A DNA stretch of 64,000 nucleotides, from positions 13,960,243 to 14,024,242 of the forward strand of contig NC_092642.1 of NCBI RefSeq assembly GCF_039555335.1, written 5' to 3'. The translations under genes were made by a program, and so were the position numbers. Of this stretch, positions 2,915-46,400 are shown one piece after another (the first letter of the stretch is position 1; every line of letters begins with the position of its first letter). The notes under the pieces were generated by a model. That model was not told where the DNA came from. It saw nothing but the letters and a program-made list of their open reading frames with translations, and ran no database searches. The stretch comes from Amphiura filiformis (Eukaryota > Echinodermata > Ophiuroidea > Amphilepidida > Amphiuridae).

Positions 2915-4149
2915 CAGCGAATGCTATAATCGTAGCGTTCTATGATGAGTGCATCGTATTGTAGATCTTGAGGACAATATCATTTAGATGTTGCTAATGC
3001 GTAACGGGTACTTTAGTAGGCCTATTTGAAAACCCCTTATTAGTTATTGGACCAAGTGGGATACCCCCCATTTTCCACCATTATTTATCAACCCAGGGAA
3101 CTTCATAGAATAATTTTCATTTATAATATGTACAGTGTGTCTCATAAAAAATACCAAGGGAATTAATTTGGACATAAGTCGAGAAATTAAAAACATTAAA
3201 AATCATCGAGTATGTCATTTTATATTGCATCATAGTAAATTTTAATTGATTCGGTTGACTGGTTGCGACGAAATGAGCGATAATAATGCGCGCGTCAAAT
3301 GTATGCAGTCCAGTACAACTTTGATCAACAGGTCATTTACTCATTTCTTCATACTCACTTTACTTGCTTACCCTTCCTAAAGTTTGTGTATGAAATGTTG
3401 CATGCTCTTACCTATATTTTGTTATCAGTGCCGCCGAGAGCCATTACGGGACCCGGATTAAATGAATGCACGGGCCCCTTTGACCAGCCACGCAGGACTT
3501 CACACGTGTAGGGGTGGGTGGGGGTGTGTGGGGGGGGCAACAGCAGTGGCGTAAATTTCTTCGTGACAGGGGGAGGGAGGTTGCTGTAAAATCCTTGAAC
3601 ACATGTTGAAGTGGAGTGTTTAGCTGCCAATGATCAAATATGCGCACAAATTTGCAATTGAAAGTGGCATTTTGCTCCCTGATCGGGTCCAAGATAAATT
3701 TCTCTGAACAACTTCCGTGTGAAGTGCAGAAAATTCCAATGCCAATTCCAATGCCAAAATGATCAAGTATGAACTGTTGAATTGGACAGGTGCGTGCGGA
3801 GCGCGCGAAAATGTGTAATTCGAAAAGCAGCGAGTGCTCCCAGATTGAACTTATCATGCTTATTGGAACAAGTTTCACGCGAAGCACGGGATAAAGGTGC
3901 CAATTTTAATCTAAATGATAATTTAATGATGAACATTGCGCGCGAATCACGCGAAAATTTGCAATTTGTGTTCCCCTGATTTATCGAAGTCTTCATTATA
4001 TCGAGGATGATCATTCTGGAACCACCAGACTTCACCAGGTGGTCAGTTGCCTGATGAAGCCTGGTGGTTCCAGACGCAACGTCGCAATAGTTGCTAAAAG
4101 TAATTTCCAGCATTCGATTTAATTCCAAAACTCTGTTTGAAACTACTTA

Positions 4150-7421: not shown

Positions 7422-7482
7422 ATGAGTTCGGATCAGACAAGCGAGAGAAGCAAGAAGTGCCCAGTAGCGGTTGTTGGAATTG
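7422..7482 (+). CDS. pks: PKS coding exon 1
   Basis: Encodes [20 protein letters not shown] plus the first base of a Gly codon. 'PVAVVGIG' is the first strand of the ketosynthase fold. The donor is g|gtgagt. It ends in phase 1 and joins exon 2 to give GIGCRMPGG, the standard KS start. Confidence 0.9.
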
Positions 7483-10400
7483 GTGAGTACTGGAATGTTT
7501 ATAGCCATTATTTTCGATTGACTTTTTCGGTAAATCCCATAAGCCTTTGCGAGTAGACCTGAGATGCCGTCCTTCGATGTCACGCCGGCGCACACCGATA
7601 GTGAACATCGCCAATTGCGAATTTCCAAGCCATGAAGTAGCGACATCCTATGTCTACTCGCAAAGGTGTATGGGATTTACCGAAAAAGGTCAATTGCAAA
7701 AATCTTGTAAACTGTGAACATTATTTTCCCCTGTTTCTAAACTTGGACTTTCTTCCAATTTCCGTATTGAATATGAATCCGGGGTCTCCCTGGCTAGAGG
7801 TATAGCCTATACGAGAATGTACCACGGTTTGGGCGGGGGTTTTCAGTGGAGACCAATGCACCAATTGGGCGCATTTGGACCAAAACTGCCTTTAAAAGCG
7901 CCAAATTTGGACAAGTGTTGTTGCATTTTGTGAAACATTTGTATAATGATTCTATTTTATTAATGTGTCATAAGGTGCATTACAATAAAGCTATACATGT
8001 ACGATCTTTTAAAATGAATTGGGTATTCAAACGTTAGCACGTGTCTTAATTGGAATCGGCCATATGTGTTGTATTTGTGGAACAAGTAATTCTGAATAAT
8101 GTCTTATTAAAATCCCCATAGAACACCACAGTTTAGCAACCAAGATAGTATGGCTTCTTCCATTTTGCATTAATAGGTCCGCTTTAATTGCTAAAATATA
8201 TTTCAGCAATTTATTAGCAAGTAGGCTAGGCCTATAATAACAAAAATAAAATTTGGCCGAAATCGTATATTATGGTTTTTTTGTTTTGCACCCCCTAATT
8301 TTCAATATTTGGTACCATAGCTATGGGTCTCCTCTATCCAGTGATGCCAAAATAAGTACAAACATTCCCCACATAATATCGCTATGACGTCATAATGTGA
8401 GGGCACCCATGCAAATTTTGGAAATTCTGGCTTTATGTACAAAAATATATAGCCAAAATTGATTTTCGGCTAAAAATTCTACGAACTTGTGATTTTCACC
8501 GAATTTTCTCCTAGATAGAAAAGGCAATGACTATTTCAACCTAACTAACAAATAAAAAGTCAGTTGCCCTTTAATTTTTCAAGAGCGAATTGAAATTCAT
8601 GGATTTTACTGTAGAAACCAATGGTGAGCCACATCAACCCCCTCTATGGTCATCTTTGATGGTCGGTCCGTCCCGGTCCGCGGTTAAGGTGCTGGGGTAA
8701 TATATTTTATCACTAAAATGAGCGCAAAGGATGGATCTACGATTAGCTTAGGTCGTTAGGTCGTAAACTCGCGTTTTTTTGTTTTTTGTTTGTGACGGAT
8801 AACAAATCTTGGGAAAGGGGTGGTACAACCCCCTCCCCCTTTCGAAGTTCTAGGGTTAAATTAATATATATTTAAAACTATACATCTCACGCAAACATTA
8901 GGCCTACTTACATTTTCTGAAAGAATAATATGTTCCAAAGAATCTAACTGTGTCAAAATCAGGTTGAGAGATCAAGGTGTCCTAGCAGTTATCCATTGCG
9001 TTCGACGCATGACCGCGAGGTTGCGGGTTCGAACCCCGTCAGAGCCAACAGGTTGTGTCCTTCAGCAAGACACGCTTGTCCATTCCACCCAGGTGTAAAA
9101 TAGGAGAGCTGGGGTAGTCATACCAGCGCCGTTGTTGACTGCCTAACTTTTTAATACTTGCATATCCTAGTAAAAGAGGAGGCTGTGTTTAGCGTTAGAT
9201 TTAATTTTACAAAGCGCTTTCAAGTTGATATTCGTTTAATTGCTGATCTAAGGCGAAATTCTTACGTTTATCATTTATTTTCAGGCCCTGGTATTTTTAT
9301 TTATGCAGGGTGCCAATAAGCTTATTAGGGTAATGTCGATAATTTTTTATTCAACTGCATGTTATGAAATATTTCAAAAGTAATTTCATGTTGTAACATG
9401 GCAAAATATGATAATGAGCCTTAATCAAATGTATAATATTGCTTTGTTATGATTGACCGAAGTGGTGATATAGGGCGTCAACAAACTAAGGGTACAATTC
9501 TGGTTTACCCTGCGCAACCTGTGTTTTAGGGTTAGGGTAATTCGTAAGGGTTAGGGTTAGGGTATAAGGATTAGGGTTAGGGTTAGGGTATAAGAATTAA
9601 GGTTAGGTTGGGATTAGGGTTAGGGTTATACTTGTGACCAGGGTATACCAGAATTATTTCAAAATAGGTAATGCATGCAGGCAAAAAGGTTTTGTTACAT
9701 TTTTGAAAATATTTTCTCCAGGGTGTATCCTATTATTTTACTTGAATATGGATATCTTTCTTCCAAAAATGTATAATCTTCATTTATCATAGATGGCGAT
9801 AGGGGGTGGGGGAGGGTATTTTTCCATGAGGAAGGCACCCCCCCCCCATTTTTTTTTTAATCCTTAAAGAAGAAACATCTAGCACTCACCTTCACTTTGA
9901 ATCTTCTGCGTAGATTTCGGCTCTAGATTAGGATCCATTTGATATAAATGTCTAAAATGTGCATTTGCATTTTTTAAAAGGTTGCCGCATGCCAGGCGGA
10001 GTGACCACGCCACAAGAATTCTGGGACGTGTTGGTCAATGGACGAGATATGATTACAGAAATCCCACCAGACCGGTGGTCAATTGAATCATTCCATGATC
10101 CAGACCAATCTAATCACAGTAAGATGGTCACTAAAAGATGCGGGTTCATCCATGATATCGACAAGTTCGATAATACCTTCTTCAAGGTAAGTACATATGC
10201 GCGGACTTTTGAATGTTTGGTCAATAAATTGACCTTTTTAGTAAAATTGGGATATTCCAGTTGACATCCATTCCATGCAGCCCTATGGAAGACATGACCT
10301 TAAAATCCCACATATGGGGTGTAGATTTCAATATAGCCACCCATTCACTCAGGTAACCCCAATATAAATTCACACCCCCTGTGTGTGATATATTCGCTGT

Positions 10401-11826
10401 CAAAGTGATGTAATAATCGGATTATAACTACCACAGCAATAGGTTCAAACAAATATATCTCGCTGCACTACAAGCAGGTTGCTCAATACTCATCACCTGT
10501 GTATATGTCTGCAATCATAGGTTGAATAAAATACCGCATTTTTAAAGATACTAATCTTACAGGTGCGAGTGATCAGCATAATATGGATATTCTATAGATA
10601 AGAATTACGATCCAGGTCTTTATTTCTGCTCTTTAAAATCTATGGTTAAATGTAGAGGTACCGCGTGAACGTACCAGTGCAGCGCGATATATTTAAAAAT
10701 TGTTTTAACCTATTGCTATATGGTAGTTAATCCGATTATTACGTCACTTCGACAGCGAATAAGGTATTATGCCTTCCAAAGAGGGCTTGTGGATTTCAAC
10801 AGGAATATCCCAATCCCGATAGCCTTTGCGATTGAACCCCGTTGAACCCATGATACCGTACAACCGCGGACACATCCTCGCGACGTAATTCTGTAAAGTG
10901 CGCGTAATATACGTCATCATGGGTCTAATTGCAAATGCTTTTGGGATTTACCAATAAGGCCCATTATTTATCAATATGATCGATATATTATCAATTACAA
11001 GTTCATTTTTATTCGATTGTGTTTGATTTTGAATCCTTTAAGTATGTCAAATAGTACAAGTGAAAGTTAAAAACATATGATATCATGTTTAGTTATAGTC
11101 TGCATGCAATGTTTTTGTTTGCAGCAAAAACTCTCTATAACACTGGTTAATTTCGCTTTTAAACATTATTTTTTAGATTTCTCCAAGAGAAGCAGCTTCC
11201 ATGGATCCGCAACAACGTCATATTTTAGAAGTAACCTATGAAGCTTTTCAAGACGCAGGTATGTTAACTTTTAATATAACACGTTAACATACAGCAAAGG
11301 AAACAATTGAAAATAGCATCACCATCCATCAACAATAACTCTATCCCCCAGCATAACAAACCTAAGCTATATAGATACCCAGGGTTCACGATTAATGTGT
11401 CTTTCCTTGGCCGACTCAAGGGAAAGAAATTTCATTAATTGCGACGAAGCTTAAATTTTAACTTCACTTTCTGCTGTTTTCAAATCGATTATTATCCACC
11501 CCGACGCAGTTTGGAAGAGGACTCTAAACACCGGCGTGTCCAGGATCTGTTCCTGCGGGGGGCTCAAAGGGGCTTTCAGAGTTATGCAGGGGCTTAATGG
11601 CTAAAATCGCCACTGCTAAAATGAGCTCAAATATGTGCTGTCCACAAAATGTTTACCCAAATGTTAACCCTTGGCTTCTTTTGTTGGGACTTGTACACAA
11701 TTACCCTTCTATACATTGACATGTGCGATCCTAACACGTGTGAGGTCAAAGTTTATCTTGGGGTCACTTGAGGTCATTCTACAGATATGTTATTCTTTTA
11801 TTTTTGTTTTTAAGGTTTTCTTTGTG

Positions 11827-11886
<60 letters not shown>

Positions 11887-14800
11887 TTTTTTGTTTTGTT
11901 TTGTTTTGTTTTTAAATATATTTTTATTTATGTTTATTTTCTATTTTCAGGCATTATTTCCGAAACATTGGGTGAAAGCTGCGGTGTTTACGTAGGCGTT
12001 GGCATGATGGATTACCCCATCATGTTAATGGATACATCATTGACCAATCCATACACACATACAGGTATCGGGCATTCTGTAATAGCAAACCGTATTTCCT
12101 ACGCATTCAATCTTCGTGGTCCAAGCACTGTAGTAGATACAGCCTGTTCATCTTCTGTAACCGCCTTGCATTTGGCGTGCTCCGCCATATGGGACGGAGA
12201 GTGTACGTCAGCAGTTGCCGGTGGCTGCAACAGTTTACTTATTCCAGAAGTCACGGTAGGATTTAGCGCACTTGGGGTACTGAGTCCGGAAGGCAAAAGT
12301 TGCCCATTTTCTGACACCGCCAAAGGTTACGTAAGAAGCGAAGGATGGGGCACATTTATACTGAAGCGTCTGGATGATGCAGTGGCCAACAACGACCACA
12401 TTTATGCAGTAATTAAAGGAAGCGCCATCGCCGCCAATGGCTACAGCAAAAGTCTTACTATGCCGTCTGCAGAAGCACAAGAAATGGTCATGCGCAACGT
12501 ATACGATAGATTTAATGTACCAATGTCGTCAGTGCAGTACGTAGAAGCCCACGGAACTGGCACACCTGTTGGAGATCCAATAGAAGCAAGTGCTATTGGA
12601 GCAGCTTTTGAGCAGAACAGGAAAGTCCAATCAAAATTGGGTCTGTGAAAAGCAACTTCGGCCACAACGAGTGTGCTGCTGGGATCACAGCTGCGATCAA
12701 GGTTGCTCTGATGTTGAAAAACAAACAACTGGTTCCAACCATCAATTTTCATGATCTTAACCCAAAGATCAACAAAGATGATCTCAATATTGAAGTTCAA
12801 AGGGAGATAGAAGAAATGCAAGACGACGGTTCCCCCTTTACTGTTGGGTTGAACAGTTTTGGCTTTGCTGGTTCGATCGCACACATGGTGTTCCAAGAAG
12901 CACCTAAATCAGATGTGGCACCAAAAGAAAAGTCTGGCTGGTCGTTCGGGAAGGAAGCTCAGTCTGAAGGCAAGTCAACTATTGTTCCTTTATCTGCAAA
13001 GACATCCGAAGCACTTAAAGACCTTGCCGTAAAATGGGAGTCATTTGAGTGCGACAAAGATGCCCTCTCCGTCGCAGGTTGGCAAGCAACAAGGAGGGAT
13101 CACCATCCATACAGGATGACTGTAATAGCAAACTCTGCTACAACCTTCCGCAACGCCACTCTCGCTTTCACTCAGGATTTGGGATCTGAGTCGGTAGTGA
13201 CTGGTACAGCGAATCCAAACAAACCAAAGATCTGCTTTGTATTTCCCGGGCAAGGACAGCAATGGATTGACATGGGACGAAGGTTGTTTGAAGATGAGCA
13301 GGTTTTCCATGACAGTGTTGTTGAATGTGACGAGCTATTCAAGGACCTAAGTGGATGGTCAGTGCTGAAGTCATGTGGTCTATTTGGTAGCCGGGATATC
13401 ACCGACGCTACTTCGCCATATACATCTGCTGACGATGCTCTGCAAAATGTTGAGGTGATCCAACCTGCTATCCTCTTCATTCAGGTCGGAATGTACCGGC
13501 TGTGGCGATATTGGGGAGTAGAGCCTGATGTAGTTGTAGGTCATAGTTTAGGTGAGGTGGCAGCAGCTTATGCATGTGGAGGTTTGACTATTCAAGAAGC
13601 AATTGCCGTGATATACCATCGAAGTCACGAGCAAGCAAAACTGACGGGAACTGGACGCATGGCTGCACTACGAGCTACTGTAGAACAAGCTAAAGCCATC
13701 TGTCAACAGCACCAGAATGTCTACATCGCTGCTATCAACGGCCCCGGTGCTATCACTCTTGCTGGAGACAGTGATCAGATTGCAGCCATCGTTAATGAAA
13801 ATCCTGGCAAAGCAAAGCAGCTGCGTGTTACCTGTGCCTTTCACACACCAGAAATGGATCCGATAGAAGAGCCTTTCAACCAGGCAATGCAAGGTGTCAT
13901 TTGCTCAGAGTCAGGGAAACGTCAAGTTCCTTTCTACTCTACGGCAACTGGACACTATCACCAAGACGCTCTGGACGCTAAGTATTGGTGGAACAACATC
14001 CGCAATGCCGTTCTCTTTCAACCTGCAGTGGAAGAGCTTCTTCAAGACTCCAACATTGATATATTCCTAGAAGTATCTGCCTCAGCCACACTACTCTCAT
14101 GTGTGAAGCAGATTGTCCGATCCATAGATCCACAACTTAGTGTTTCAACAGTCAATTCTAGCCTCAGAGACAAGGATGATTTGCACTCAATTCAGCGAGC
14201 TATAGGAAGTCTTTACGTTGCCGGTGTAGATCTTCACTGGGATAATATCACCAAGAAAGCTGCAGAATGGGCACCGATACCAACATACCAATGGCAGCAT
14301 CAAAGCTTTTGGTTGGAGACAGACGACCGGCAGAAACAACGCTTAGGACTTGATGACAGATCATTCAAAGGACAAAATGGCAAGATCAACATGACCAATT
14401 TCCCATACTTAGCTGATCACGTGGTGGACGATAGAATTGTCTTTCCAGGAGCAGGCTATGTAGAGTTCATCACTGAGATGAGTTGCAAAGACACCGAAGC
14501 TCCATGTATGAAAGATGTCAACTTCACTAGGGTTTTACCATGGCCTGAAGATAGTGACAAGAGAGGCGTTCTCCATCTAGATCTTCACAAAGAAGGAGAC
14601 CGTGTACAAGTCAAATGCGAAAACAATAGTCACTGCAATGCTATCATCGACACCACCAAACGGATGCAGGGTCTAAAGAAGAGGCACTACCAGTTGAGAA
14701 GATCATTGAGAGGTGCGACAAAGAGGTGACGAAAGAAGAGATGTATGAAAGGATGCAGAGAGTTGGCCTATCTTACGGTCCTGCTTTTCAGATGGTAGAG

Positions 14801-17800
14801 AAAGCTTTCATGGGTGATGGCGAGTCAATAGCCTATTTATCTCCGATTACAGACTCGAATCAGAGAATTTCCATTCCTCATTTGGATGCCACCTTCCAAC
14901 TTGCTTTGGCTACCGCTGGTCCAGTGATGTACCTGCCAGTTCATATAGACTACCTCCGGATGACCAATCTATCTCTACCAACAGGACAGTCAATCCTTGT
15001 TTACACCAATATCGTTGACTGTGACAGCACTATTGTAACGGCTGACATCACCATGGCTACCGAGAGTGGGAAAATCTTAGCTGAGGTGACAGGATACCGA
15101 GCCCAAAACTTTCATGGTAGTCATTCAGATGTTGATATTGATACGTGTATTTACACGACTCAGTGGCAACCAATAGCTGCTTGTACACTCCAACCATCAG
15201 TCATCAATGAGGTTTTTGCGGCATCTCATCTTGCTTCCACTTATGAAGATGAGATGGATGCTATTCATCGTGCTGAGGAAGTACTTGATGACATTGAAGG
15301 AATGTGTACATCCTACATCAGAAATGCGTTAGAAACAGTTCCAGAAGAAGAACGATCAAAAGGACAAAGCTATGAAAAATATATCAGCCGTTTCAATACT
15401 ATCGCATCATCTACTGCAGTGAAAGATATACCATATGATGCAATCCCAGAGATCATGGAAAGAGTCCAGAAGCACTGTCCAGAGCTGGATGCGGAGATCA
15501 GTCTTACAAAGAGTCTTGGCGAAGCCCTTCCAGATACCTTTAGAGATCCACAAGTAGCTGTCCCAATCATGTTTTCCCCGGAGGGATTAGACAGATACTT
15601 CTACGATTCTCTCAGCACAAGAGTACATTACAAAGCAGCAGCAGAGGCTGTCAACAAAGCTGTGATGGAAGGATTAAAACAAAAACGCGTGGTTCGGATT
15701 TTGGAGCTGGGAGCAAGAATTGGAGGTTTAACACGCTTCATCGTTGAACCACTCAAACAGCTTGGATTTTCCAATCAAGTCGAGTACGTATTCACAGATG
15801 TCAGTGCTACATTCTTCAAACAAGGCCAAGAAAATCTATCAATGTATCNCTTCATCCAGTACAAACAGATTGATATCGAGAAGGATATTGCAGAACAGGG
15901 ATTTGTGCCAGGCAGTTTTGACATTGTCGTATGCTTAGATACCCTACATGCCGCTGTCGATGTCAAAAGAAGCTCAGGTTACATGGCCAACCTCCTCACC
16001 CAAGATGGTCTCATGTTTATCATTGAGGGTACGAATACCCACTTCATGACAGAGTTGTGGTTTGGTGCGCTGGATGTGTGCTGGGTGTTTGATGACTTCC
16101 GCGAAGAAAGATGTTGGATGGACCGTCAAACTTGGATGGATGTCATGCGCAGTATTGGTCTTCATGACGTCACTTCGGCTTCAACACCTAAAGAGTTTTT
16201 CCATAGCATTGTTGTTGGACGAAAGGATGAGGGGAATAAAAGACTACTTCAAAGGCGAGACAATAATTTGATCATTGCTGAGGCTGACCCTGCAAAGTTG
16301 ATGATTGTCCGAGAAATCAGCAACAAGTTTAACAACGAGATTGAAACAGCCTATAGAGGAGATATTGACATCAGATCATTTTCTGAAGCCAGCAAATTTG
16401 ACGATCTTTTCAGCGAACACACCTCTTCTCCGATGGAAGTGATGTACATCTACAGTGATGCTGATAGTAAACTACATGCCCTGTTGAAGCTTCTGCAAGC
16501 AGTTGAGCTTTATCCACAAAGTGTTAAGCGTGTTTGGGTGTTAACAAAAGGAGGCAACAAGGAATCAACCTCTCCTAACGCATCCTTGGCTATTGGACTG
16601 GCTAGAGCCGTCAGCAACCAGGTTCCAAATGTCCCGATCTACTCAATTGATTTTGATACAACCTGCAGTCTTACAGAAGACGTCCAAACACTGATGAAAT
16701 TGATGAAGGAGCCAAACATACCAGAGAGAGAATTTGTGATCAGAAAGGGAGTTCGATTTGCTCCTCGTATCGTTCACCAGGGGTTGCAAACCAAGAGAAC
16801 AGTTTCTACAAGTTGGAGAGTGGAACAAGTTATCTCTCAGAAAGGTAGTGGGTCTATTGACGATCTTGCTTTCCACGATATTGGTAGTATGGAAACGCCA
16901 CCAGGACATGTCAAGATCTGTGTTCGAGCAGCTCCTCTGAACTTCAAAGATGTAATGATGTCGATGGGTCTGCTGGAGGGATTAGAATCAGAATCGCACC
17001 CGTCTTTTGGAATTGAATGTGCTGGAATTGTAGAAGAAGTTGGAGTTGGAGTGACGGATGTGAAAGTTGGTGATGAAGTGATTGCGTTTGGCAAAAGGTG
17101 CTTTGCTTCTCATGTTATATGTGATGCAAAACTGACAGCCCTGAAACCACAGCGACTTGATTGGAAGGAAAGTGCCTCAATTGGAGTGGTGTTTGTAACA
17201 GCCTACATGAGTCTAGTTGAACGTGCTAATCTTCAACCAGAGGAGACAGTTTTGATTCACTCTGCCTGTGGTGGTGTTGGATTGGCAGCAATTCAAATCG
17301 CCAAAATGCTGGGAGCTAAAGTAATCTGCACGGCTGGCACAGAGGAGAAACGACAATACCTACGAGATGTAATTGGGGTAGAGATGGTCAGTGATTCTCG
17401 ATCAACCAAATTCTACGATGATGTCATGAGCTTTACAAAAGGTAGAGGTGTGGATGTTGTCCTTAACTCCCTTTCAGGCAAGCTATTAGCTACAAGCATG
17501 TCAGTTCTTGCTCCATGTGGCCGATTCTGTGAAATCGGCAAACGGGATATTCTACAGAATTCCAACCTCTCAATGAATGCTCTTCTGGAAAACAAAAGCT
17601 TCATTTCTTGTCAAGTGGACATACTCATGCGACAGAGTCCCAGCTCCGTTCAACGGCTGATGCAGAAAGTAGTCAACTTATTTGAAACACATAAACTGAG
17701 TCCAATACCAACATCAGTGTATTCAATGGAGAAGTTGACAGATGCATTCCGCTTCATGGCTAAGGGATCACATATTGGCAAGATTGTGTTTGATGTATCC

Positions 17801-19241
17801 GATGACTTCCAACCAGAAGAATTGAAACCAGCTGTACAACAGTTTTCAGCTGCAGCAACATACATCGTGACAGGTGGATATGGTGGTATTGGTCAAGCTT
17901 TGTCCAGGTGGCTCTGCAACAATGGCGCAAGACATATCGTACTTGTATCTCGAAATGGCCCAAGAACTGCAGCAGCACGACGAATGGTGAGATACTTGAA
18001 AACTAATGGAGTGAAAGTTCACAAGCACCAAGTCGACATAGCTGATGAAAAAGCTGTAAGGTACATGTTGGACAGTCTACGTGATGACAGCTCAGTTCCA
18101 CCAATTAAAGGTATCTTCCATCTAGCTGGTGTGATCGAAGAGGAGAACTTTTCAGAGATAAACCACGAACAAGCGAACCGTATCCTTGGTGCAAAGGCAT
18201 CTGGAGCTCATCACCTTCACACTTTGACCAAAGAAGATAATCTAGATATATTCTTCCTTCTTTCATCTATTTCTGCTGTCTGGGGTCATCCAGCACAACC
18301 AATCTACTGTGCTGCCAACAACTACTTAGATGGTCTTGCAGAACAGCGCCATTCTGAAGGCTTACCAGCTCTCTCCATTCAACTAGCACCAGTCAAGGGG
18401 GCTGGGTACTTGGAGGACAAAGATGACACGGTGAAAATTCTGGCAATGAAGGGCAATCTGCAGATTCATGTAGATGAGTTTCTGGATGTTCTTGGAAGAC
18501 TACTTCAACAGAGAGATCTACCAGTCGTGTGCTTAGCAAATCAGGTAAGGGTAAAAGCATTTAGTACTTTATATTAAAGAGCAAAGTATAAATCTTCACA
18601 TGACCACAGTATGCGGACACACAATAGTATCACACAGATTAATGTATATAAATTGACAAACTCTACAAATTAATCATATCCAAACTCTATAAAGGCAATA
18701 ATATAATCGAATTATACTAGAAGACCACTATTAAAAGTTCACTTTTGGATCGAAGTTAACAAAAATATTTAATATCTGCAGCAAAAATATTAACATTGTG
18801 TGTTGTAATGATTGCCATATAAAATGTTACTGGTCATTCTTTGTACGAACAGGTATTCAAAAGATTTATTCTTAATTATAAACACGTATTTCTATTGTTG
18901 CTATTTTACAGGAATGGGGTTCAACTCAGCAATTCTGCCACAAGTCCATGCTCAAATTTCACCATCTCACAACCAACAGCAAGGCAACTGACAAAACAGA
19001 CAGCGCTATGGGCAAAGAAGACATGGAAAATGGGATCAAATCCAAGATGGCTGACTTACTCTGCATGCCAACAGACGCCATTGATGTTACTCAACCTATG
19101 ATCAACTATGGTGTGGACTCACTGGTTGCCTTGGAGATGGTTAACTGGGCAACCAATCAGCTCGGTGTTATCATATCTCAATTAGACATTCTTGGAGGTA
19201 TTACCACTGCTGCATTGCTCCAAAAAGCTACAGGTTCATAA
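7422..19241 (+). CDS. pks: Animal FAS-like type I polyketide synthase (KS-AT-DH-MT-like-ER-KR-ACP)
   Basis: Coding exons are 7422-7482, 9981-10186, 11177-11258, 11951-18544 and 18912-19241, all with GT-AG junctions and matching phases. The start ATG follows 'caacaaca', a good context. With one base restored in each of two A-runs of exon 4 the total is 7,275 nt, or 2,424 aa. Domains by approximate residue: KS 13-440 (C182, H317, H355), AT 560-860 (S649 in GHSLG), DH 900-1180 (H940, D1096), methyltransferase-like 1340-1520, ER 1737-2060, KR 2085-2290 (Y2236, N2240), ACP 2330-2424 (S2385). There is no thioesterase, unlike animal FAS. The AT motif CAFH (745-748) resembles the malonyl-type HAFH. 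The family makes reduced or partly reduced polyketides in the cytosol; the sea urchin relative is needed for echinochrome-type pigment. Product release must use another enzyme or a spontaneous step. The alternative call, a fatty acid synthase, is less likely because the thioesterase is absent. Confidence 0.93.
7512..7700. mobile_element. MITE in PKS intron 1, about 190 bp
   Basis: The inverted ends read about 'actttttcggtaaatcccat' then 'aagcctttgcgagtaga' on the left and the reverse complement on the right (7655-7697). The arms are about 45 bp around a GC-richer core. A relative with the same 'gcctttgcga...gggatttacc' ends lies at 10812-10957. Confidence 0.75.
8280..8750 (+). repeat. Dispersed repeat, related to 48010-48290
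   Basis: Segments such as 'ggtctcctctatccagtgat' followed by 'gccaaaataagtac', and 'aaaatgagcgcaaaggat', recur in inverted orientation at about 48020-48180. The shared blocks have the same order, so both are copies of one family. No coding region is visible in either. Confidence 0.55.
8966..9245 (+). mobile_element. tRNA-derived SINE
   Basis: The head looks like a tRNA with a B box 'ggttcgaaccc' at 9026-9036 and a weak A box upstream ('tagcagttatccattgc'). It is followed by 'tgtgtccttcagcaagacac' and 'ccacccaggtgtaaa', a body known from deuterostome tRNA-SINEs, and a tail with 'aaagcgctttcaagttga'. The anticodon arm does not fold into a clean tRNA, so this is not a tRNA gene. It lies sense-oriented in PKS intron 1. 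Confidence 0.75.
9496..9655. mobile_element. MITE-like unit with telomere-like core
   Basis: The ends are inverted: 'aattctggtttaccctg' at 9496 and 'cagggtataccagaatt' at 9639-9655. Between them, about 9523-9631 is almost entirely (TTAGGG)-like: 'ggttag' and 'ttaggg' units in irregular runs separated by 'tataagga' spacers. See the finding on this. It is in PKS intron 1. Confidence 0.65.
9981..10186 (+). CDS. pks: PKS coding exon 2 (KS N-terminal part)
   Basis: The acceptor is 'tttttaaaag|gt' and the donor ttcaag|gtaagt. It encodes [20 protein letters not shown] and on to FDNTFFK, the conserved N-terminal KS stretch with EIPPDRW. It enters in phase 1 and leaves in phase 0. Confidence 0.92.
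10247..10813. mobile_element. MITE split by a second MITE, PKS intron 2
   Basis: The outer ends are 'ttgggatattccag' (10247) and 'ggaatatcccaa' (to 10813), with 'tggaagacatgacctta' close to the left end. A partial copy of the same family lies at 27099-27266, and end fragments at 5060 and 5402. The middle, 10391-10761, is a separate palindromic element. Confidence 0.7.
10391..10761. mobile_element. Palindromic MITE nested in another MITE
   Basis: The arms read 'tattcgctgtcaaagtgatg' then 'taataatcggatta' on the left and the near-exact reverse complement on the right. The arms are about 60 bp and the total is 371 bp. It interrupts the element at 10247-10813, so it is the younger of the two. 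Confidence 0.75.
10812..10957. mobile_element. MITE, about 146 bp, relative of 7512-7700
   Basis: The ends share 'agcctttgcga' and 'tttgggatttacc' with the intron-1 element. The core includes 'tcctcgcgacgtaattc'. It abuts the outer MITE directly. Confidence 0.55.
11177..11258 (+). CDS. pks: PKS coding exon 3 (KS)
   Basis: The acceptor is 'tttttag|att' and the donor gcag|gtatgt. It encodes [20 protein letters not shown] and on to AFQDA, the conserved KS block with MDPQQR. Phase 0 in, phase 1 out. Confidence 0.92.
11829..11888. repeat. (TTTA)n microsatellite in PKS intron 3
   Basis: About 15 uninterrupted 'attt' units just upstream of a T-rich tract and the exon 4 acceptor. It reads through as an open frame into exon 4, which makes the apparent ORF start at 11671 misleading; the true exon begins at 11951 after 'ctattttcag'. 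Confidence 0.9.
11951..18544 (+). CDS. pks: PKS coding exon 4, 6.6 kb (KS to KR)
   Basis: A single exon carries most of the protein. KS active site DTACSSS at 12136-12156, EAHGTGT at 12544-12564, KSNFGHN near 12650. AT GHSLGE at 13539-13556. [13 protein letters not shown] from 14418 and DATFQ from 14885. Methyltransferase-like motif LELGARIGG from 15701. [12 protein letters not shown] from 17267. [10 protein letters not shown] from 17870 and YCAANN from 18305. The reading frame shifts at about 12622-12625 and again at about 14658-14661. At both places adding one A to an A-run restores a normal domain sequence. An N lies at 15849. All other sequence is open and family-like, so assembly error is more likely than decay. 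Confidence 0.92.
18912..19241 (+). CDS. pks: PKS coding exon 5 (acyl carrier protein, stop)
   Basis: The acceptor is 'ctattttacag|gaa', phase 0. It encodes EWGSTQQFC... and the ACP with the phosphopantetheine Ser in [10 protein letters not shown] (S2385), ending TAA at 19239-19241 soon after the domain. There is no room for a thioesterase or reductase. Confidence 0.93.
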   Translation, partial: EWGSTQQFCHKSMLKFHHLTTNSKATDKTDSAMGKEDMENGIKSKMADLLCMPTDAIDVTQPMINYGVDSLVALEMVNWATNQLGVIISQLDILGGITTAALLQKATGS

Positions 19242-19734
19242 GTACCGAACATTTCCTTAAAGGGGCCGTTTGTGACCATTCCACACTAGGCTACTCGTAA
19301 AAAGTGAGCGACTTTTTTGCTACCCTTTATTATTTTCGCCGAGAAATACAGCCATGTTATGAAATTTCTGGCTAAATAAATGTTGCATTTTTACATAGGC
19401 TCTTTATGCACTACGTGAAAATTCAATGATAAATCTAGTGTTCATTTATCCAATCAACCAAAAGGTTTTTTTAGTTCAATGGCCAGGTGAAAATGTGTAT
19501 TTATAATCTTTTTACCCAAGATATTTCATTATCTGCAGCATTTAATTTCATTTATTCAATAAAACCATAAAACATGTTTTGGAATGTGTGATACCTAAAT
19601 CGGATAAGGGAAAAAGTTGTCCAACACAAATCGATGCATAAAAGGCATAAAGAGCTTTTGTACAACAATTCAACTTTTTTACATTGGTTATTGTTCTGGT
19701 CCTGTGTGAACATTAATTAATTCACATTGTGGAC
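19242..19734 (+). other. PKS 3' untranslated region and flank
   Basis: The first polyadenylation signal is 'aataaa' at 19375-19380, 134 bp after the stop; a second is near 19558. No ORF or repeat stands out before the satellite begins. Confidence 0.5.
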
Positions 19735-21110
19735 TTATTTGAGCCATACTTTATCCACATTAATTTGGTTATGTATGCCTACCCTGATGCATCTCAGTCT
19801 TGAAATTATGAGCAAAAACCATTGGTAGCTGATTATTGTATATATTAGGCGAAAGAATTAATTTCATTAGAAAATCAGGGACATTTTGTATCATATGATG
19901 CATAATACTTTGGGCTATACTTGATGCATATTACTTTCATGCTTACTTGCATTTCTTAATTCATCTCAGTCTTGAAGATACGAACAAAAACGATTGGTAG
20001 GCCTAGCTGATTATTGTATATATCAAGCGTAAAAATGAATTTCAGTGAAAAACAGTGAAATTTTGTATGATATAATGCATTTTGTGGATACTTTGAGCTA
20101 TACTTGATCCACATTAATTTAGTTATATATGTCTACCCAGTTGCATCTCAGTTTTGAAGTTACGAGCAAAAACCATTGGTAGCTGATTATTGTATATATC
20201 AAGCGTAAAAATTAATTTCAGTGAAAAAACAGGGACATTTTGTATGATGACATTTTGTGGATACTTTGAGCTATACCTGATGCACATTAATTTGGTTATG
20301 TATATCTACCCAGTTGCATATCAGTCTTGAAGTTACGAGCAAAAACCATTGGTAGCTGATTATATACATCAAGCGTAAAATGAATTTCAATTGAAAAAAA
20401 AACAGGGAAATTTTGTATGATATAATGCATTTGTGGATACTTTGAGCTATACTTGATCCACATTAATTTGGTTATGTATGTCTCCCAGTTGCATATCAGG
20501 CTTGAAGTTACAAGCAAAAACCATTGGTAGCTGATTATTGTTATATATATATATATATATATATAGGAAGCAAAGAAGCGAAGAAATACAAAAAAAAAAA
20601 AAAAATACTGAAATTTGGGCATACAGGGTGTCCCAGAAAAATTACTGAGTGAATTTAAAATGTCGTAATTGAATATTTTATTATTTTATATATATATATA
20701 TCAAGCGTAAAACTGAATTTCAATGAAAAAACAGGCACATTTTATATGATATAATGCATTTTGTGGATACCTTGTGCTATACTTGATCCACATTAATTTG
20801 GTTATGTATGTCTACCTAGTTGCATCTCAGTCTCGAAATTAAGAGCAAAAGCCATTGGTAACTGATTATTGTATATATCAAGCGCAAAATGAATTTCAGT
20901 GAAAAAACAGGCACATTTTATATGATATAATGCATTTTGTGGATACCTTGAGCTATACTTGATCCACATTAATTTGGTTATGTATGTCTACCCAGTTGCA
21001 TCTCAGTCTTGAAATTAAGATCAAAAAACCATTTGTAGCTGATTATTGTAGATAGGGCCTATCAGGCGTACAAATGAATTTCAATGAAAAAAACAGTGAA
21101 ATGATGGGGA
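19735..21110. repeat. Satellite array, about 175-bp monomer, 7-8 copies
   Basis: The anchor 'accattggtagctgattatt' recurs at about 19820, 19993, 20175, 20348, 20523, 20853 and 21031, spacing 172-182 bp apart from one 330-bp gap. Other shared landmarks are 'cttgatccacattaatttgg', 'catctcagtcttgaa' and 'ggacattttgtatgatataa'. The large gap holds an insertion at about 20540-20700 with (TA)n runs, an A17 tract and 'cagggtgtcccagaaaaa', a tip typical of mariner-like elements. Confidence 0.88.
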
Positions 21111-31400: not shown

Positions 31401-34400
31401 AGTCTCGATCACCCAAGTACGTTTACTTTGTTATAATAGAGAGCTTGCGATTTCCAAACGTACGTATTTTACGCCGGTGCACCTACTCGAAATCCCGTCA
31501 CATGAGAATGATTTTGAATAGATGCATGGGAATATGAAACGTACGTTCGGAAATCGCAAACTCTCTGTTAGAGAGATTGCGATTTCCAAACGCCATGATG
31601 GTACGCACGTCTATTTATTAAAAATCTAGCTAGTTTTGAAGATTTTGCACGTACGAAATGAACGTGGAGACAACGTTGAAGTGCACACAATTTGTCTACT
31701 TAACAATATAATTAAAGACAGTAAAGGATAATGAACATACAGAGAAAAGTTTAACTATTAATATGACCATTTTTTGTTTGTAAGAAATCATTATAAAAAG
31801 CAACAGTGAGGTGTGAAAATTTGACTTCATTCATACGTGCAGATTGTCAATTAAAATGCGTGTCAGATTTGCCGTATAAAAATTAGATTGCGATTTGTTT
31901 GCGATTACTTGTTTTTTGGCAACTATGATATTAAGCAGCGTGTTAGCTTTGGTTTTTAGTGAAAATCAAGATAATGCTGTATTGAAGTAGACATAAGACC
32001 CGGAGACAACTTAACTTCAATTGTTTCGTCCTCTTGTGACCAGATCAGATGTTAGTCTTTGTTCCAGCCGCCTTGTTCTCCTTCGTTATGAAGGAGCACA
32101 ATCCAGCTTGGAACCGAGACTAGCAATATGTACGCACGTTTTGAACGCCGTATAAACACACGGTCCACGCAACACGTCATGGAACATCGTAATCTCTATA
32201 GTAATAGTTTTACATCTTTCGCGCCGATGAAAACTTGTATAAGTACATCATGTACATATAAGATTAACTGTCTTTTGGCAACTTTACTGAGTATGGGAGA
32301 TGAAACTGTTGATTTGTTTAACCAAATTGTTTTCACACTTTCTTTAATATTTCCAGTATGCCTGACTATATTCTTACCCGTAATCCTTCACTCATTTCCA
32401 GACCGTCACTGTCGCCTTCAAGATTGTGCCCGCCACTACATTGCCGGGTATATCGTCTGCTTGTAACTTGGCCAGTGTGTTCTTCTTCCAGTTTCCTCTT
32501 CCCGAATAGCCAGACGACAAACTCCTATTAAAAGTTTGGAATGCAAGCAGTTATAGGTCCTTATATTTTGTGTATTATAATTGGCGAGTATTTTGTGGTA
32601 GATGTTTCGTAACGGATATGATGCCGCATCACAATAAAATGGTTTCAATGGGTTTATACTGTCGGACTGTCTGTTAATATTTCTTAAGAACATATTTAAG
32701 AGCATATAATATTTAAGTTAAATCCTTGCATCCTAAGAAAAAAACGACTGTGAAACCTGACAATGAATACTAATGTAACAACAACTTGTCTTAAGTATAC
32801 ACGGTAGCTCTGAAAAGAGCTGTTTCAAGAACAGACTGTCAAAGAAGTAGACTGCATCATCAATTAAACTTGTATTGTGCAGAAAAGTTAAGATACGTAT
32901 GGGATAAACGAGGGCAAGGCTTACGGGGTATAGGAGGATACAAACGGCGTCAACATATGGCGAGTTAGTGATCCATAATAGGTATAGGGTTATTCTCCAG
33001 AAGAGCTACGTATTGAAGATATTTAAATGTTGCTATTCATTAACTGCGTACCCCAGCTACGTACACAACGCATTCTGTCACCAGTGGTGAAAAGTTTACG
33101 AACCTGTATTGTGGATATTTTCCTCAATTTCCCATACCAATAATGCTGCAGCAAATCTTGTACGGCTGGGTGTGCTATGAATTTGTATACGTTGTAACTA
33201 GCAGCCAATGACAGACAAGTCTGCTGGCTCCATTTCTCCATTTGTGCACATAACAAACATCTTGTATAATCAGGTGCCATTGTGTAACACTGATCTAACA
33301 GGCCTATGGCTACCTGCTCGTAGCGCCTGAAATAAAACGGTTTTTTAAAAAGAAAATGTGTTTGTCAATCGATAAACCACATTGGAATATAAAGAACGTG
33401 GCCTAATCGTGATTCAAACGCTGGGTCTAGTCTCAATTCCCATCTCGCTGCTGTTGTCATCCAATCGCGAATCGCGATGTTAACGTACGGAAGACCTATC
33501 AACCGTCTAACCTTCATTTCCACACCAAACCTCTGAGTAGTGACCAGGAGCATAGTGTATGTTACACTATTTTGGCTCATGATGGGGCGAAGTTTGGCTG
33601 AAAACGGGCTCCTTGCTCCTTTTCTTTTCCTTTGCCTTCCCGATTTTCTTTTCCCGATTTTCTTTTTCATTTTTTTTGTCAGATGGGCACTTTTTCTTTC
33701 ATTTTTTGCCAGTGACTTTAAAACTCGAAAGTGCTCCAGTGGTTTCAACCTTAAAACATTACGTTTTAAATGCTAAGTGGCGTCATTAATTCGATGAATA
33801 AGATATCGAGCACTAGAAATCATCCACGACCCGACGTATTAAAGTCAATGTCATCAGACAGTATGTAAATAGAATAATAATTCAGTTATAAATTAATAAT
33901 GTACCGCATATTTTATTATACAAACCTTGATTCCGCCATGATGATATCGGCCGCGTCAGTATTGTATTTGGCTCGTGCTATTTCAGACATTTTGCAACAC
34001 AATCTACTGCCAATCAACGCTTTGGCAATGGATTGTCGGCCACGTTGCCACATCAGATAAGCCATCTGGAATTTCTTAGTTAAAATTGCCCATATGAACA
34101 GATCGTCAAAAGGTGAGGTGTCTTCCTCGTCAAACATATCCAGCCCGTCAATTTCGTCTTCCTGGGGAACAATTAATGCACATTTTTCAAAATTTTTTAA
34201 TATTTTTTCGATTCATAAGTATACCCATAAAACCTTCGAAGTACGTGGGCGGCTTTCAAAGAGCTGTGCATTTATTAAGTATATAGTGGTGTGGTGGCTC
34301 TGAAAAGAGCTGTGTTTTTATCAACTATACGTTAAATCGGATCTGAAAAGAGCTGTGTATTATCAAGTACATGGTGGCAGCTCTGAAAAACTGTACATTT

Positions 34401-40400: not shown

Positions 40401-43400
40401 GCCACTGACGTCATTGTTTCTTATCCAAGCCAAATAAACCCTTTGGATCCTATACTGAAGCCTTCATACTAAAAAAAAAGTATTCCATGAGCCAAAATCC
40501 TCACCATTTCTGCATCCGACGATTTCTTGGACAAACCTCCGCAATTTTAAACTCTCGTAACGTAAGTATTTTCCACCAACAAAATCAACACACTTCACCC
40601 TATGGCTAGGCTTGTATTAACTGTTTCATGCGAAGAACCTTGCCATACTTTACGTAATGTAGAATTGATAGAAGCCGATTGAGTGTTGAGCAAAAGAAAC
40701 CATCTGTTTTGGAGCTGTTGCAATACTTATGTTTTGTGCATGACACTAGAATATGGGAATAAATGAACTAACGGGCGTTACAATATTACTTTGACCATGG
40801 CTGTTGGTGTTTGTTACTTACCAGGTGTTTTCTGGCTACTATCTTCTTCAAGTATTGCATGATGTTATCATGTGCGTCTACTTCTCTAGGGAAGGCTTCG
40901 GCTATTTTGGATTTCAGTTGATCGATTTGCTTGGATTCGAGTAGTCTAGAAAGAAGATAAAAAGGATACTTTTTTGTAACAAAATCAACTTTAGATTATC
41001 CGCTGATCACGTTAATCCATTTTGTATGAAAACACTCTACAACAATATTTTTAAAAAAAATTTAAATGTTATTGTAAACTACTTTTTGCAAATATATTTT
41101 GCCAAAGATTTTGTCAACACTTGAATAACATTTGTTAAAATATTTGCAGTAGGTTATCAAAAAATGTTTTTTAATGTTATATAACGCGACATTTTTCTGA
41201 CCTTTTATAACCTTTTGCGAATGATGTCGAAAACGTTTTGTGTTTGCTGGGCATACGGGCCTTGGTGTTTTATATCAAATGTGTCAACCATCCGCGCTCG
41301 GTGTTTAATATCATTTTGAACTTTCACTTTTAGCATTGTTTAATTGCTATAATTTGTAACGTTTATGTAATTACTATGTATGGACAGCTCTTTTCAGAAA
41401 CACCACTACCACCATTTATCCCACAATAATTATCATTCTTATAGTTCCTACCCTTGTCTGGTGGCACAATCGTAGGCAAATGCAATAAGATCAGCACCCC
41501 TACCACTCCCTGCCGCTATGACAGCTGGTATTGGTGGATCTTTTGATACATTCTCAAGCACTGTCCTGATGGTATTCACTCCGCCTTCTAAAGCCAAACA
41601 TACTGCTGGAATACCACGATCACCTAAAATGTAGATAAAGACATCACATCAGATAAGATCTCTACTCAATTGAATCTATGTAAATAGCACCGCTCTAAAG
41701 ATACAAAATGTAGATCGCGATATCCATGATATCGAGAAAATTCCTGAAAATCGCATAAGATTGTGCTAAATTGTGGAAAATCGCAGAAAACCGCCCTACA
41801 TTTTGCTAAAATCACAGAGCATGTGGCAAATTGCAGATAATTGTTCAAAAGTCTGCTAAATACAGAAGTTTGGGCTAAAGTATCGTAACTCGCACAATAG
41901 TCTGCTAAAATTTGTCAGAAGATCACAGAAAATGTCTACTGAATTCTGTCAGAAACTCCTCAACAAAAGTTTGGAAAGTTTTTTCAAGCATCTATATCTC
42001 AGATTATTTGTGACATGTTCATATCGTGTTGCATATCAATGAATAGCTACGTTACGTTTCTTTACAATGACACCACATTTGAAACAATCACCCTTTTCAC
42101 GGCTGAGTACACGTCTTGTGAATGTAGTGGGGTTTCAAACAGAATATGCCAAATTGACCATTATTCTGTGCTCAAACAACACTAATCATTAACCTCAATA
42201 GCGTATGGTCACACGTTGCTGTGGAATGGTATCTATTCTTCAACCAGGATTCTTCGCAGGTCATTCAATGTGGTTGCATTGGCTACTCTGGCACGCACAT
42301 CAAGACCAAGCTGACCTAAGTGTTCAATCCGGTTGAGGTCTGGGCTGATGGCAGGCCATTCCATTCTCTACTCCCATATTCTGTAGGTAGTCGTTGACTA
42401 CCCTGGCTCTGTGGGGACGAGCGTTGTCATCTTGGAGGATTACATTAGGTCCCAGATGGTGACGATATGAGATATCAACTTGCTGCACAGAATAATGGTC
42501 AATATGGCACATTCTGTTTGAGACTCCACTACATTCACAAGACGTGTACTCAGGCGTGAAAATGTGATTGTTTCAAAATAATGTGGTGTCATTGTAAAGA
42601 GCAATAAAGTAGCTATCTATTGATATGCAACACGATATGAACATGTCACAAATAATTTGAGATATAGATGCTTGAAAAAACTTTCCAAACTTTTGTTGAG
42701 GAGTTTATATCCAGCTAACTCAGAGTAAAAATAGCGCAAAATACGAGTCGAGTGCGATGTTACTGTTATTTCCTCGGTGACACAACCTATTTCCTCATAA
42801 TGTGGCAGTGGTTTATCAATTATAAATTTATTAAATAGCTCAAAATCTAGGCGGGGTAAAGTATAAAACAATATGCGTTACTGCTATACTTACTATCTGG
42901 ATCGATTCTTTGTTGAGCGATGAGTTTTTCCAGTTTAGATCTAAGTTGAATCTCGACTCCATATTTCCCAACAGATCCATCATCCACTAGAACAAAATGC
43001 GTGTGATTCGGGTCTAATGACGCACCTTTGCTTTCCATTGAACTCGTCATACGGTAATGGGTTACTTTCTGTCGAGAAAGCAAATACACAAATCAACTTT
43101 CTCCTTTTTTTCTAAACAATTCAGACCACTCTTTTTTTATATTCAATTAGGTTTTGTCGTTATTTTTAACCTTCCAAGTTTTTGTTGTCTTTTCTCGACA
43201 ATAAAGTAAATTCAGACTATCTTTGATAAAACCTACACATGCATGAAGCTGTAAAGTCGTATCTTGTGAATACATGTTCTTGTTTCTTTTTCTCAACAGT
43301 ACTAACATCTTTGATTCTGTAATTGTTACGTACCCTATGTTGTCCTCTGTGCCTTTTCTCGACAATCAGATCATCTTTATTGTCTATGATGCCCCATGAA

Positions 43401-46400
43401 GCCACTCCTATCGCAAAAATCTTATTCCGTGATCTTAATGTGTGCTCGCGTAATGCTTTGCCTACGTGCTTCATTACGCCTAGAAGGGAAACATAATATC
43501 AACAGGTGTACAGTGTAGACAATCATATTTGGCCATGCCGTAATAAGAATACATAAGAATACAGCAAATATCCACAACTTACGTTACAGATCCCTTCTAC
43601 AATTTGTCATATTTTACCAACATTTTAGCCAATACATTGGTCAATAACTCATTCAACCATCCTGGCCAGACTGAAGCAAAAGTCATTTTCTGGAATCTGG
43701 AGGGTCATTCAATGTAACTTCATCTGGATCACAAACTGCCCAAAGGGTCGTCGTTGAGGGGAAAACATCTGAACCAGTTCATGTAAAGTCTGGAATTCCC
43801 CAGTGAACAGTACTGGGGCCACTCATGTTTTTAATATTTATTAATGACATTGCCGATTCACAGTGAAACAAAAACAAGATCTCATTGCCATTCCCATACC
43901 GGAATATGTTCAGAAACAGACAGCATCCCATACCCGCCAATACCATCTGGCCAAGTTTAGAGTCATGGGACCGACAACAAATGCTTACAAATGCAGCTTT
44001 TACCCACGCACCATTCTAGACTGGAACTCATTGCCAACTTCAATTCACAATATTCAAAATAGGTTCAAAAATGCACTGGTAGATCTAAGGTTGTAGAGTA
44101 GGGTAAATTAAGATTGTATAGGGGCCTCAACATAAGAATGTAGTTTGTAGTGTAGTATTTGTTTTTCATCCAGTGCCATACTGTTTCTCAGACTTGGAAG
44201 AAGCCAAAGGCCCACACCGGTCTAGGGACTTAAGCAACAAAATTATAGAATGATAAATGAATAAAACTGTCACAATATTTTAATATTAATTAAGCTAACC
44301 TGTATTGGTTCCTCCGGTAATTATCCACGCATTGGTAGACACAGCCACGTTGACGATACCCTGTCTGAAAATCCTCTTCAGTTTTGGCTGCAGGACAAAA
44401 TCTTTGGCACCACCTGTGACTTCTATGAGTAGTTTGGGTAATTCTAAGCCCCATCCCTCCGTGAAAAGTTGAAGAACATCTTCCGCTGAGGCATTGTGGG
44501 ATACTCTTGCATACTGGTGTTGCAAGAAAAAACAAACAAACAGATGATTGGTCAATTTAATTTATTAAGATTCTGGTAACAGATCCAAAAGAAATGTAGT
44601 ACTCACTGGATATATTTCAGTTCCAATCAGAAACCTTGCTCACTCTGCAATGACTGTAAATAGTGTTTCTAGATGTCAGCAGACCCAAGTGGCTGTGATG
44701 CCGTCGCCACTTTTGTTGGTTGCCGTTGTGAGATGATCTCGTCATAGATTCTGTCCAGTTTGTATGCCCCCTCGTCCTTGTTCATAGTGTTTTTGCCCCT
44801 GCTCCTGATCCTAGTGGCTTCTTTTAGCCAACGCGTGGTTTTGTCTGCCTCTTGATCGATGATTTTGGCCTCGTCCCAACTGATTACATACAAAGACTGA
44901 CCCATTGGCTTTTTCTTTGTCGTCTTTCTTCTCCCTTTTCTTGGTTTTTGGATGTTGTTTATCTTCCTTAACCTTGTCGATGGCCCAACCGGGGTATCCA
45001 CATTGAGAGAGAGAGAGAGAGCGTCCTTGATCTCGCTTTCTTCTTCTACTTTGCCCGCCTCCTCTGTGACGATAGCATCCTTTCTGTCAAGGAAAGTCCT
45101 TACCACTCCCAATTTCTGGTGTAAGGGGTGGTGTGACTGGAATTGCAAGTATTGGTTTGTGTGTGTGGCTTCCTGTAGATAGACAACGTTGTGGTGCCAT
45201 CTGGTTTTCTGGTGATTTGAGTGTCTAGAAAAGGAATGCTGCCATTTATATACCTCCTCCTCAAATTTAAACTTGATGCTACCAGCGAGATCAATTTGGT
45301 TGAGATGGTTTCACCTTTTTTTTTCAATTTCAAGCACATCGTCCACGTAGCACTTCCAAAGCCTACAGCCGGCTGGCTATAACCTGGACTTCCAACCATT
45401 CCATGAACAAGTCGACAACAATCGGGCTGAGGGGACTGCCCATGGCGGCGCCTTTTTCTGCTGGTAGATGATGCCTTTGGAGGTGAAATATGTAGTTGTT
45501 AAAATAAATTCAACCAATTCCACGATGTTGACAACTGTCAATCTTGTTCTTTGGTGAAGAGTTCGATCTTGAGTCAATTTCTTCCTCCGGATTATGTCCA
45601 GGGTCAACTCAATAGGTGTATTGGTGAAAAGCGAGACTACATCATGAGATATCAGACACTCATCATATTCAATTATTATGTCCCGTAGATCCTCAGCTAA
45701 CTGTTTTGAATTCAACACATGGTGGCTTGTGGTACCAACTAATGGACTGATGATGTCGCAAAGGGAACGAGACACGTTATAGCCGATGGAGCCTGTGTAA
45801 TCTATCAGTGGGCGCAAGGGCATACGCATTGGGCATGCAAATTGGACAGAATCTATGACCAGATCATCTCACAACAGCAACCAACAAAAGTGGCGACGTC
45901 TTCACAGCCACTTGGGTCTGCTGACATCTAGAAACACTATTTACATTCATTACAGAGTGAACAAGGTTCCTGATTGGAACTGAAATATTTTGAGTGAGTA
46001 CTTCATTTCTTTTGGATTTGTTACCAGAATCTTGACTTTACCAACACTTGACTTTGACCGATCCTGATGAATCTCATCAATAATGATTGGTCAATGTTTA
46101 CTGGCCTTTTAATTTTATTCTGTTTTGGTGTTTGTGTTTATCTGTTTACTTAAGCTATCCTCATTGCAGCTACGCATGCGTATTTATTTCATTATATGTC
46201 ACACCCTAAAAATTCCTTGAAATTTATCATAGATGATACATGTAGCTATGTCTAATATAAAAGCAATTATCATGATCTTTGCACCGGCGGACTGCTCAGT
46301 GCCAAAAGTGGGTAAGTGCAATAATGAACATTTGGCAATTTACGCACAGTATATTGTACTCATCTACACGTTACAGATACACATGACAGCTATTGCACTT

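Follow-up and report, generated by a model that had tools for sequence, protein, structure and literature searches.

A type I polyketide synthase locus of Amphiura filiformis with SpPks1-like architecture and a residue-complete KR domain

Few animal polyketide synthases (PKSs) have known products. A PKS gene located in a stretch of 64,000 nucleotides from the brittle star Amphiura filiformis, here called the window, raises the question of which kind of animal PKS it represents, and whether an enzyme that is built like the sea urchin enzyme SpPks1 and that has every catalytic residue of a KR would release an aromatic or a reduced polyketide. A preceding reading made from the nucleotide sequence without database searches (the sequence-only reading) had described the gene as a complete animal FAS-like PKS without a thioesterase (TE) and as a likely working iterative synthase with full reductive capacity. 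We therefore consider the gene model, the domains, the family of the KS and the likeness to characterised relatives, and relate them to the possible chemistry of the enzyme.

Gene model and reading frame

The PKS gene consists of five exons on the plus strand (7422-19241) of the window, whose DNA is animal-like in its GC content (37.5% by base counts), its introns and its many repeats. Exon 1 (7422-7482) is preceded by upstream in-frame stops, starts with ATG, encodes the N-terminus of the KS and ends at a GTGAGT donor. KS homology continues through exon 2 (9981-10186; AG acceptor, GTAAGT donor) and exon 3 (11177-11258; AG acceptor, GTATGT donor). The 6.6 kb exon 4 (11951-18544) contributes the remaining KS together with the AT, DH, methyltransferase-like, ER and KR domains, while a linker, the ACP and the stop codon are found in exon 5 (18912-19241; AG acceptor). 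All four introns are bounded by GT and AG, and joining of the exons yields a coding sequence of about 7.27 kb for a product of about 2420 residues. The start at 7422 and the stop at 19241 given by the sequence-only reading are both identical to those of our gene model. AATAAA signals are present downstream of the stop at 19375 and 19558, and no second PKS copy was detected within the window at an E-value of 0.01.

Several repeats accompany the gene. Intron 1 contains a TTAGGG-like array (9526-9628; period 6, 16.5 copies, 71% matches), a perfect TTAT run of 15.5 copies (11828-11889) lies directly upstream of exon 4, and a tandem array with a unit of 173-176 bp (19738-21054) begins about 500 bases past the stop.

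Exon 4 is not one open frame, as two one-base frame changes occur in it, each visible as an overlap of two open plus-strand frames. At the first slip (12612-12648) the upstream frame, with the initial part of the KS, ends at 12648, and the next frame, open from 12612, continues the KS; at the second (14630-14729) this frame ends at 14729, and a third frame, open from 14630, continues the DH. Because the Ketoacyl-synt_C profile runs ungapped across the first slip (profile positions 1-75, then 76-119), no intron fits there. At the second slip, coding scores, which were trained on the PKS gene itself, extend into the overlap from both frames, so that an intron is unlikely at this position as well, although it is less firmly excluded than at the first. 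The sole N of the window is likewise situated in exon 4 (15849, plus strand). With two frame slips and one N, exon 4 does not bear out the designation of the gene as complete.

Taken at face value, two one-base slips across a coding sequence of about 7.27 kb would fit a decaying or recently dead PKS, in which the slips are genuine and no full-length protein is produced. We regard this as quite improbable, given that the frames between the slips stay open over 6.6 kb, that GT-AG borders are kept in four of four introns along with intact catalytic motifs, and that the N within the same exon marks an uncertain base call. With motifs and splice sites intact, assembly error is a likelier cause than loss of the gene, and both slips most likely arose in the assembly.

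Further features were observed elsewhere in the window. Minus-strand open frames at 33-42 kb match TRPM2-like channels, with exons at 33023-33364, 33916-34212 and 41454-41624 and Pfam matches to PF25508 (2.8e-10 and 1.6e-12) and PF18139 (SLOG in TRPM; 4.1e-16). At 44669-45868, also on the minus strand, overlapping and mutually shifted open frames encode peptides such as CYVDDVLEIE, which we take to resemble a decayed Penelope-like reverse transcriptase; Pfam gave no match to a reverse transcriptase domain in this region. A sub-threshold Pfam match to RPAP2_Rtr1 was obtained at 56138-56536 (17.3 bits at a cut-off of 33), and the window returned no Rfam match and no tRNA.

Catalytic motifs and family of the KS

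Pfam identifies KS, AT, DH, methyltransferase-like, ER, KR and ACP domains in this order on the plus strand, all far above chance (for instance AT 9.5e-66, KR 8.4e-59 and KS 2.8e-43), while among the NCBIfam matches listed at E-values up to 1e-10 none lies above its curated cut-off. In the KS, the motifs DTACSSS, EAHGTGT and NFGH place the Cys and both His residues. The AT (13236-14231; PF00698) was aligned to CurL and EryAII and has its Ser and His in place within GHSLGE and CAFH. The letters of the latter motif distinguish malonate from methylmalonate. Since CAFH pairs with the HAFH motif of CurL, whereas EryAII reads YASH at this site, the AT probably uses malonyl-CoA, as the sequence-only reading had proposed.

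The two halves of the DH (14379-15118; PF21089 4.1e-10 and PF14765 1e-17) flank the second slip. Its His motif aligns to DH domains of the PDB with E-values of 5e-5 to 0.013, and its Asp is placed by a weak 3.3-bit alignment alone. A DH defect, suggested by an Asp in place of the Gly in HxxxGxxxxP, was considered and rejected, as the PpsC DH (4ooc) carries the same Asp. The PpsC DH is active. The ER (16901-17596; ADH_N and ADH_zinc_N) keeps GGVG, and the ACP (PP-binding, about 19035-19217; PF00550 3.7e-10) has its Ser within GVDSL. In the KR (17855-18397; PF08659), TGGxGGIG is accompanied by Lys (codon 18194-18196), Ser, Tyr (18305-18307) and Asn (18317-18319), and in alignments these four residues are common to two bacterial KRs and mycocerosic acid synthase. 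The earlier statement that all catalytic residues are visible thus holds for the motifs of KS, AT, DH, ER, KR and ACP, with the weakly aligned DH Asp as its least secure element.

The methyltransferase-like domain (15701-16012; PF08242 1.5e-11) had been absent from the domain list of that reading. Its SAM loop reads LELGARIGG, as against GAGTGG in all four aligned relatives (CurJ, AprA, LovB and DisA), and because of this degeneracy the domain is probably merely structural.

With regard to the family of the gene, the KS was compared with the PDB. CurL (PDB 4mz0), a bacterial modular enzyme of the cyanobacterial curacin PKS, gave the best single-KS match (408.7 bits, 45% identity), whereas six animal FAS rows scored between 245 and 267 bits. 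The top row, 7zma, owes its 637 bits to a pair of KS stretches (326 and 309). CurL is also the best match of the combined KS-AT piece among the PDB matches listed. The mollusc enzymes EcPKS1 and EcPKS2 are not among the best 60 of 151 matches of the window KS, the lowest of which scores 240 bits. As a control, the human FAS KS was used as query and gave 442 bits with EcPKS1, 407 bits with EcPKS2 and 281 bits with CurL. The KS, KS-AT and ER-KR pieces all score higher with bacterial PKSs than with FAS, and the methyltransferase-like query has seven matches at E-values up to 0.01 (CurJ, AprA, LovB and four others), with no FAS among them. A contig search yielded eight bacterial loci with 40-46% identity in the best segments.

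A KS tree of 14 rows was calculated, including two FAS rows and seven of the eight bacterial loci (L008 was omitted for its weak, short match). Here, human and mouse FAS form a pair with 100/100 support to which the window KS does not belong, while the placement of the window KS itself is poorly supported. The sequence-only reading had named a position of the KS inside the animal FAS clade as an outcome that would refute it. The KS stays outside the FAS pair, but a sister position to it is not rejected by the AU test (p-AU 0.371), and the family assignment made here rests on the scores and not on the tree.

Animal FAS-like PKSs (AFPKs) share a clade with animal FAS and are reported solely from molluscs and arthropods (PMC10764717). 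Several features could be quoted in favour of placing the window gene among them: it has no detectable TE, its gross domain order is that of FAS, the AU test leaves a grouping of its KS with vertebrate FAS unrejected (p 0.371), and a 2020 study names a hemichordate PKS among the animals with the methylmalonate motif, which are distributed over both the PKS clade and a FAS-like group (PMC7280274). Against these stand the higher scores of the KS, KS-AT and ER-KR pieces with bacterial PKSs and the FAS-free matches of the methyltransferase-like domain, which leave this assignment very improbable. EcPKS1 and EcPKS2 (PMC10764717, PMC7280274) are AFPKs which share the missing TE and a similar gross architecture with the window protein, but whose own KSs, unlike that of the window, resemble animal FAS closely (407-442 bits with the human FAS KS); EcPKS1 is reported to use methylmalonyl-CoA as its only substrate. 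Animal FAS itself differs by its C-terminal TE, none of which was found after the window ACP. As the window KS scores far higher with CurL than with FAS, while the human FAS KS prefers EcPKS1 and EcPKS2, the AFPK label is a misfit, and judged by these scores the window KS falls with the PKSs in the division drawn by Lin et al. The designation as an animal FAS-like PKS was consequently abandoned.

Likeness to SpPks1 and the KR tyrosine

The sea urchin enzyme SpPks1 and its crinoid relative CrPKS, both pigment PKSs, have the domain order found here, an inactive MT and no TE (PMC11414698). The window protein resembles both in domain order, pseudo-MT, absence of a TE and a GxMD motif at a near-equal position of the KS. 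This motif reads GMMD in every sea urchin, sea star, sea cucumber and brittle star sampled, and GLMD in 17 of 18 crinoids (PMC11414698). The window KS has GMMD near the active site (12001-12012, plus strand; residues 134-137 of the joined protein) and in this respect agrees with SpPks1 rather than with crinoids. Its first Met is residue 135, compared to residue 133 for the Met of the GMMD-type motif that was mutated in SpPks1 (PMC11414698). At the aligned site, the other 13 KS rows, from bacterial PKSs and FAS, all lack GMMD. In domain order, TE absence and GMMD the gene matches SpPks1, and its build is that of the echinoderm pigment PKSs; the sequence-only reading had mentioned a role of related sea urchin enzymes in pigment synthesis.

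The two characterised enzymes differ from the window protein in the KR. Its essential tyrosine is missing in SpPks1 and CrPKS, and the authors tie this loss to the aromatic products (PMC11414698). Likewise, SpPks1 appears in the table of Hojo et al. as KS-AT-DH-MT-ADH-KR*-ACP, the asterisk denoting that an active-site residue of the medaka enzyme is missing (PMC4604110). In the window KR the tyrosine is present (18305-18307) and aligns with the Tyr of other KRs; matched by motif and numbering, it would correspond to Y2209 of CrPKS. As for substrates, SpPks1 and CrPKS build their products from malonate units, and the likeness of the window protein on this point is limited to its malonyl-type AT motif. 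Taken together, the likeness in architecture and in one short motif, as judged by published descriptions, suggests a gene that is SpPks1-like in build. It is not filed as an SpPks1 orthologue, since the KR feature common to both characterised members fails and SpPks1 is known here by description only.

A plain SpPks1 orthologue would make an unreduced aromatic pigment precursor of 10-12 carbons, with the KR idle because cyclisation outruns reduction. GMMD, the architecture and the absence of a TE are indeed as in SpPks1, and SpPks1 needs no domains besides KS, AT and ACP to form its product (PMC11414698). We nevertheless consider such an orthologue unlikely, as SpPks1 and CrPKS lack the very tyrosine whose loss is tied to aromatic products (PMC11414698), and as a residue-complete KR, DH and ER suggest that these domains are used.

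Proteins that combine this architecture with an intact KR are not without precedent. In Table 2 of Hojo et al., three Branchiostoma proteins are given as KS-AT-DH-MT-ADH-KR-ACP and two more carry one extra element, all without the KR asterisk (PMC4604110); the domain order agrees with that of the window protein, and the table is silent on the function of these amphioxus PKSs. Moreover, SpPks1-like proteins have been reported from acorn worms (PMC11414698), and a further study groups a PKS of Xenoturbella with that of sea urchins (PMC10951248). All three observations would agree with a gene of another deuterostome PKS lineage, of the amphioxus, acorn worm or Xenoturbella type, that makes a reduced non-pigment polyketide. 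The occurrence of GMMD in all examined non-crinoid echinoderm genomes (PMC11414698) argues weakly against this origin, which we hold to be conceivable, if rather doubtful, and which overlaps with the explanation preferred below. Among the literature matches listed, considered by titles and abstract openings, no SpPks1-type PKS with an intact KR is described, which is not proof of its absence.

Product release and proposed chemistry

The protein ends about 40 residues past the ACP Ser. When the TE of human FAS was compared with all 2154 stop-free segments of 20 aa or more in the six frames of the window, no FAS-type TE was found; the best match (E-value 0.14) covers 27 residues on the minus strand (3503-3619). 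In the same segment set, a KR query matched the PKS at 1.2e-21. As a further control, a degraded TE was planted as three exons of 93-95 aa per run, and a run counted as a success when at least one exon was found. Of 20 runs at each level of kept identity, all 20 succeeded at 50, 40 and 35%, and 19 at 30%. This sensitivity applies to exons of that kind, and the scan could overlook a TE of another family or one split into far shorter exons. With a best match of only E 0.14 and a sensitive control, a FAS-type TE exon within the window was rejected. The statement of the sequence-only reading that the protein ends right after the ACP without a TE is hence confirmed by the stop that follows the ACP and by the lack of a FAS-type TE within the window.

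Absence of a TE is normal among echinoderm PKSs and therefore no anomaly, and SpPks1 and CrPKS yield aromatic products without one (PMC11414698). Sea urchin Pks2, which acts in the skeleton, is an animal type I PKS that, as listed by Hojo et al., differs from the window protein by a TE after the ACP; in the same source it is given without MT and ADH in Table 2, yet with an ER in the discussion (PMC4604110). Were the chain of the window enzyme reduced, it might no longer be able to close to an aromatic ring, and its release would depend on a separate hydrolase or acyltransferase. Pfam found no tailoring enzyme among 20 open frames outside the PKS; the whole window, PKS included, holds 122 frames with a length of 75 aa or more, and one of the 20 searched (41454-41624) is shorter than that.

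The sequence-only reading had deduced a working iterative synthase with full reductive capacity from the catalytic residues. A TE-less synthase of the iterative type is supported by our analysis. The residues do not by themselves establish full reduction, because SpPks1 and CrPKS, with the same domains, make unreduced aromatics on which NADPH has no effect (PMC11414698). Reduction stays possible, given that the KR tyrosine missing in both enzymes is present here. The explanation that we favour, with modest confidence, is an iterative, non-FAS-like type I animal PKS of SpPks1 architecture that uses malonyl units, probably performs some reduction by its residue-complete KR and is interrupted in the assembly by erroneous frame slips.

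From the observed gene model, domains, motifs and lack of a FAS-type TE in the window, we infer activity, iteration, use of the KR, release and product as follows. The AT would load malonyl units, which the KS would condense repeatedly on the ACP, with the methyltransferase-like domain serving a purely structural role. The KR, having every catalytic residue, would probably reduce at least some beta-keto groups, a plausible step as read from its residues alone, and dehydration or enoyl reduction might follow. Release could proceed by cyclisation of an unreduced stretch of the chain to a naphthalene or pyrone, or by a separate hydrolase or acyltransferase. More tentatively, an echinoderm SpPks1-type PKS with a working KR might deliver a reduced or partly reduced polyketide, built on the scaffold that serves sea urchins and crinoids for aromatic pigments, with retention or loss of the KR tyrosine acting as the switch between the two chemistries; we put this forward as a possibility that is clearly less secure than the favoured explanation as such.

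In conclusion, the window contains a genuine animal PKS locus that belongs to a known kind, for which "FAS-like" is an unsuitable name and which illustrates that echinoderm PKSs usually lack a TE. Its residue-complete KR is the one notable departure from its best-studied relatives, and the two frame slips are the principal reservation. The combination of SpPks1 architecture and KS motif with such a KR makes it possible to test directly if this tyrosine determines whether aromatic or reduced products are formed.
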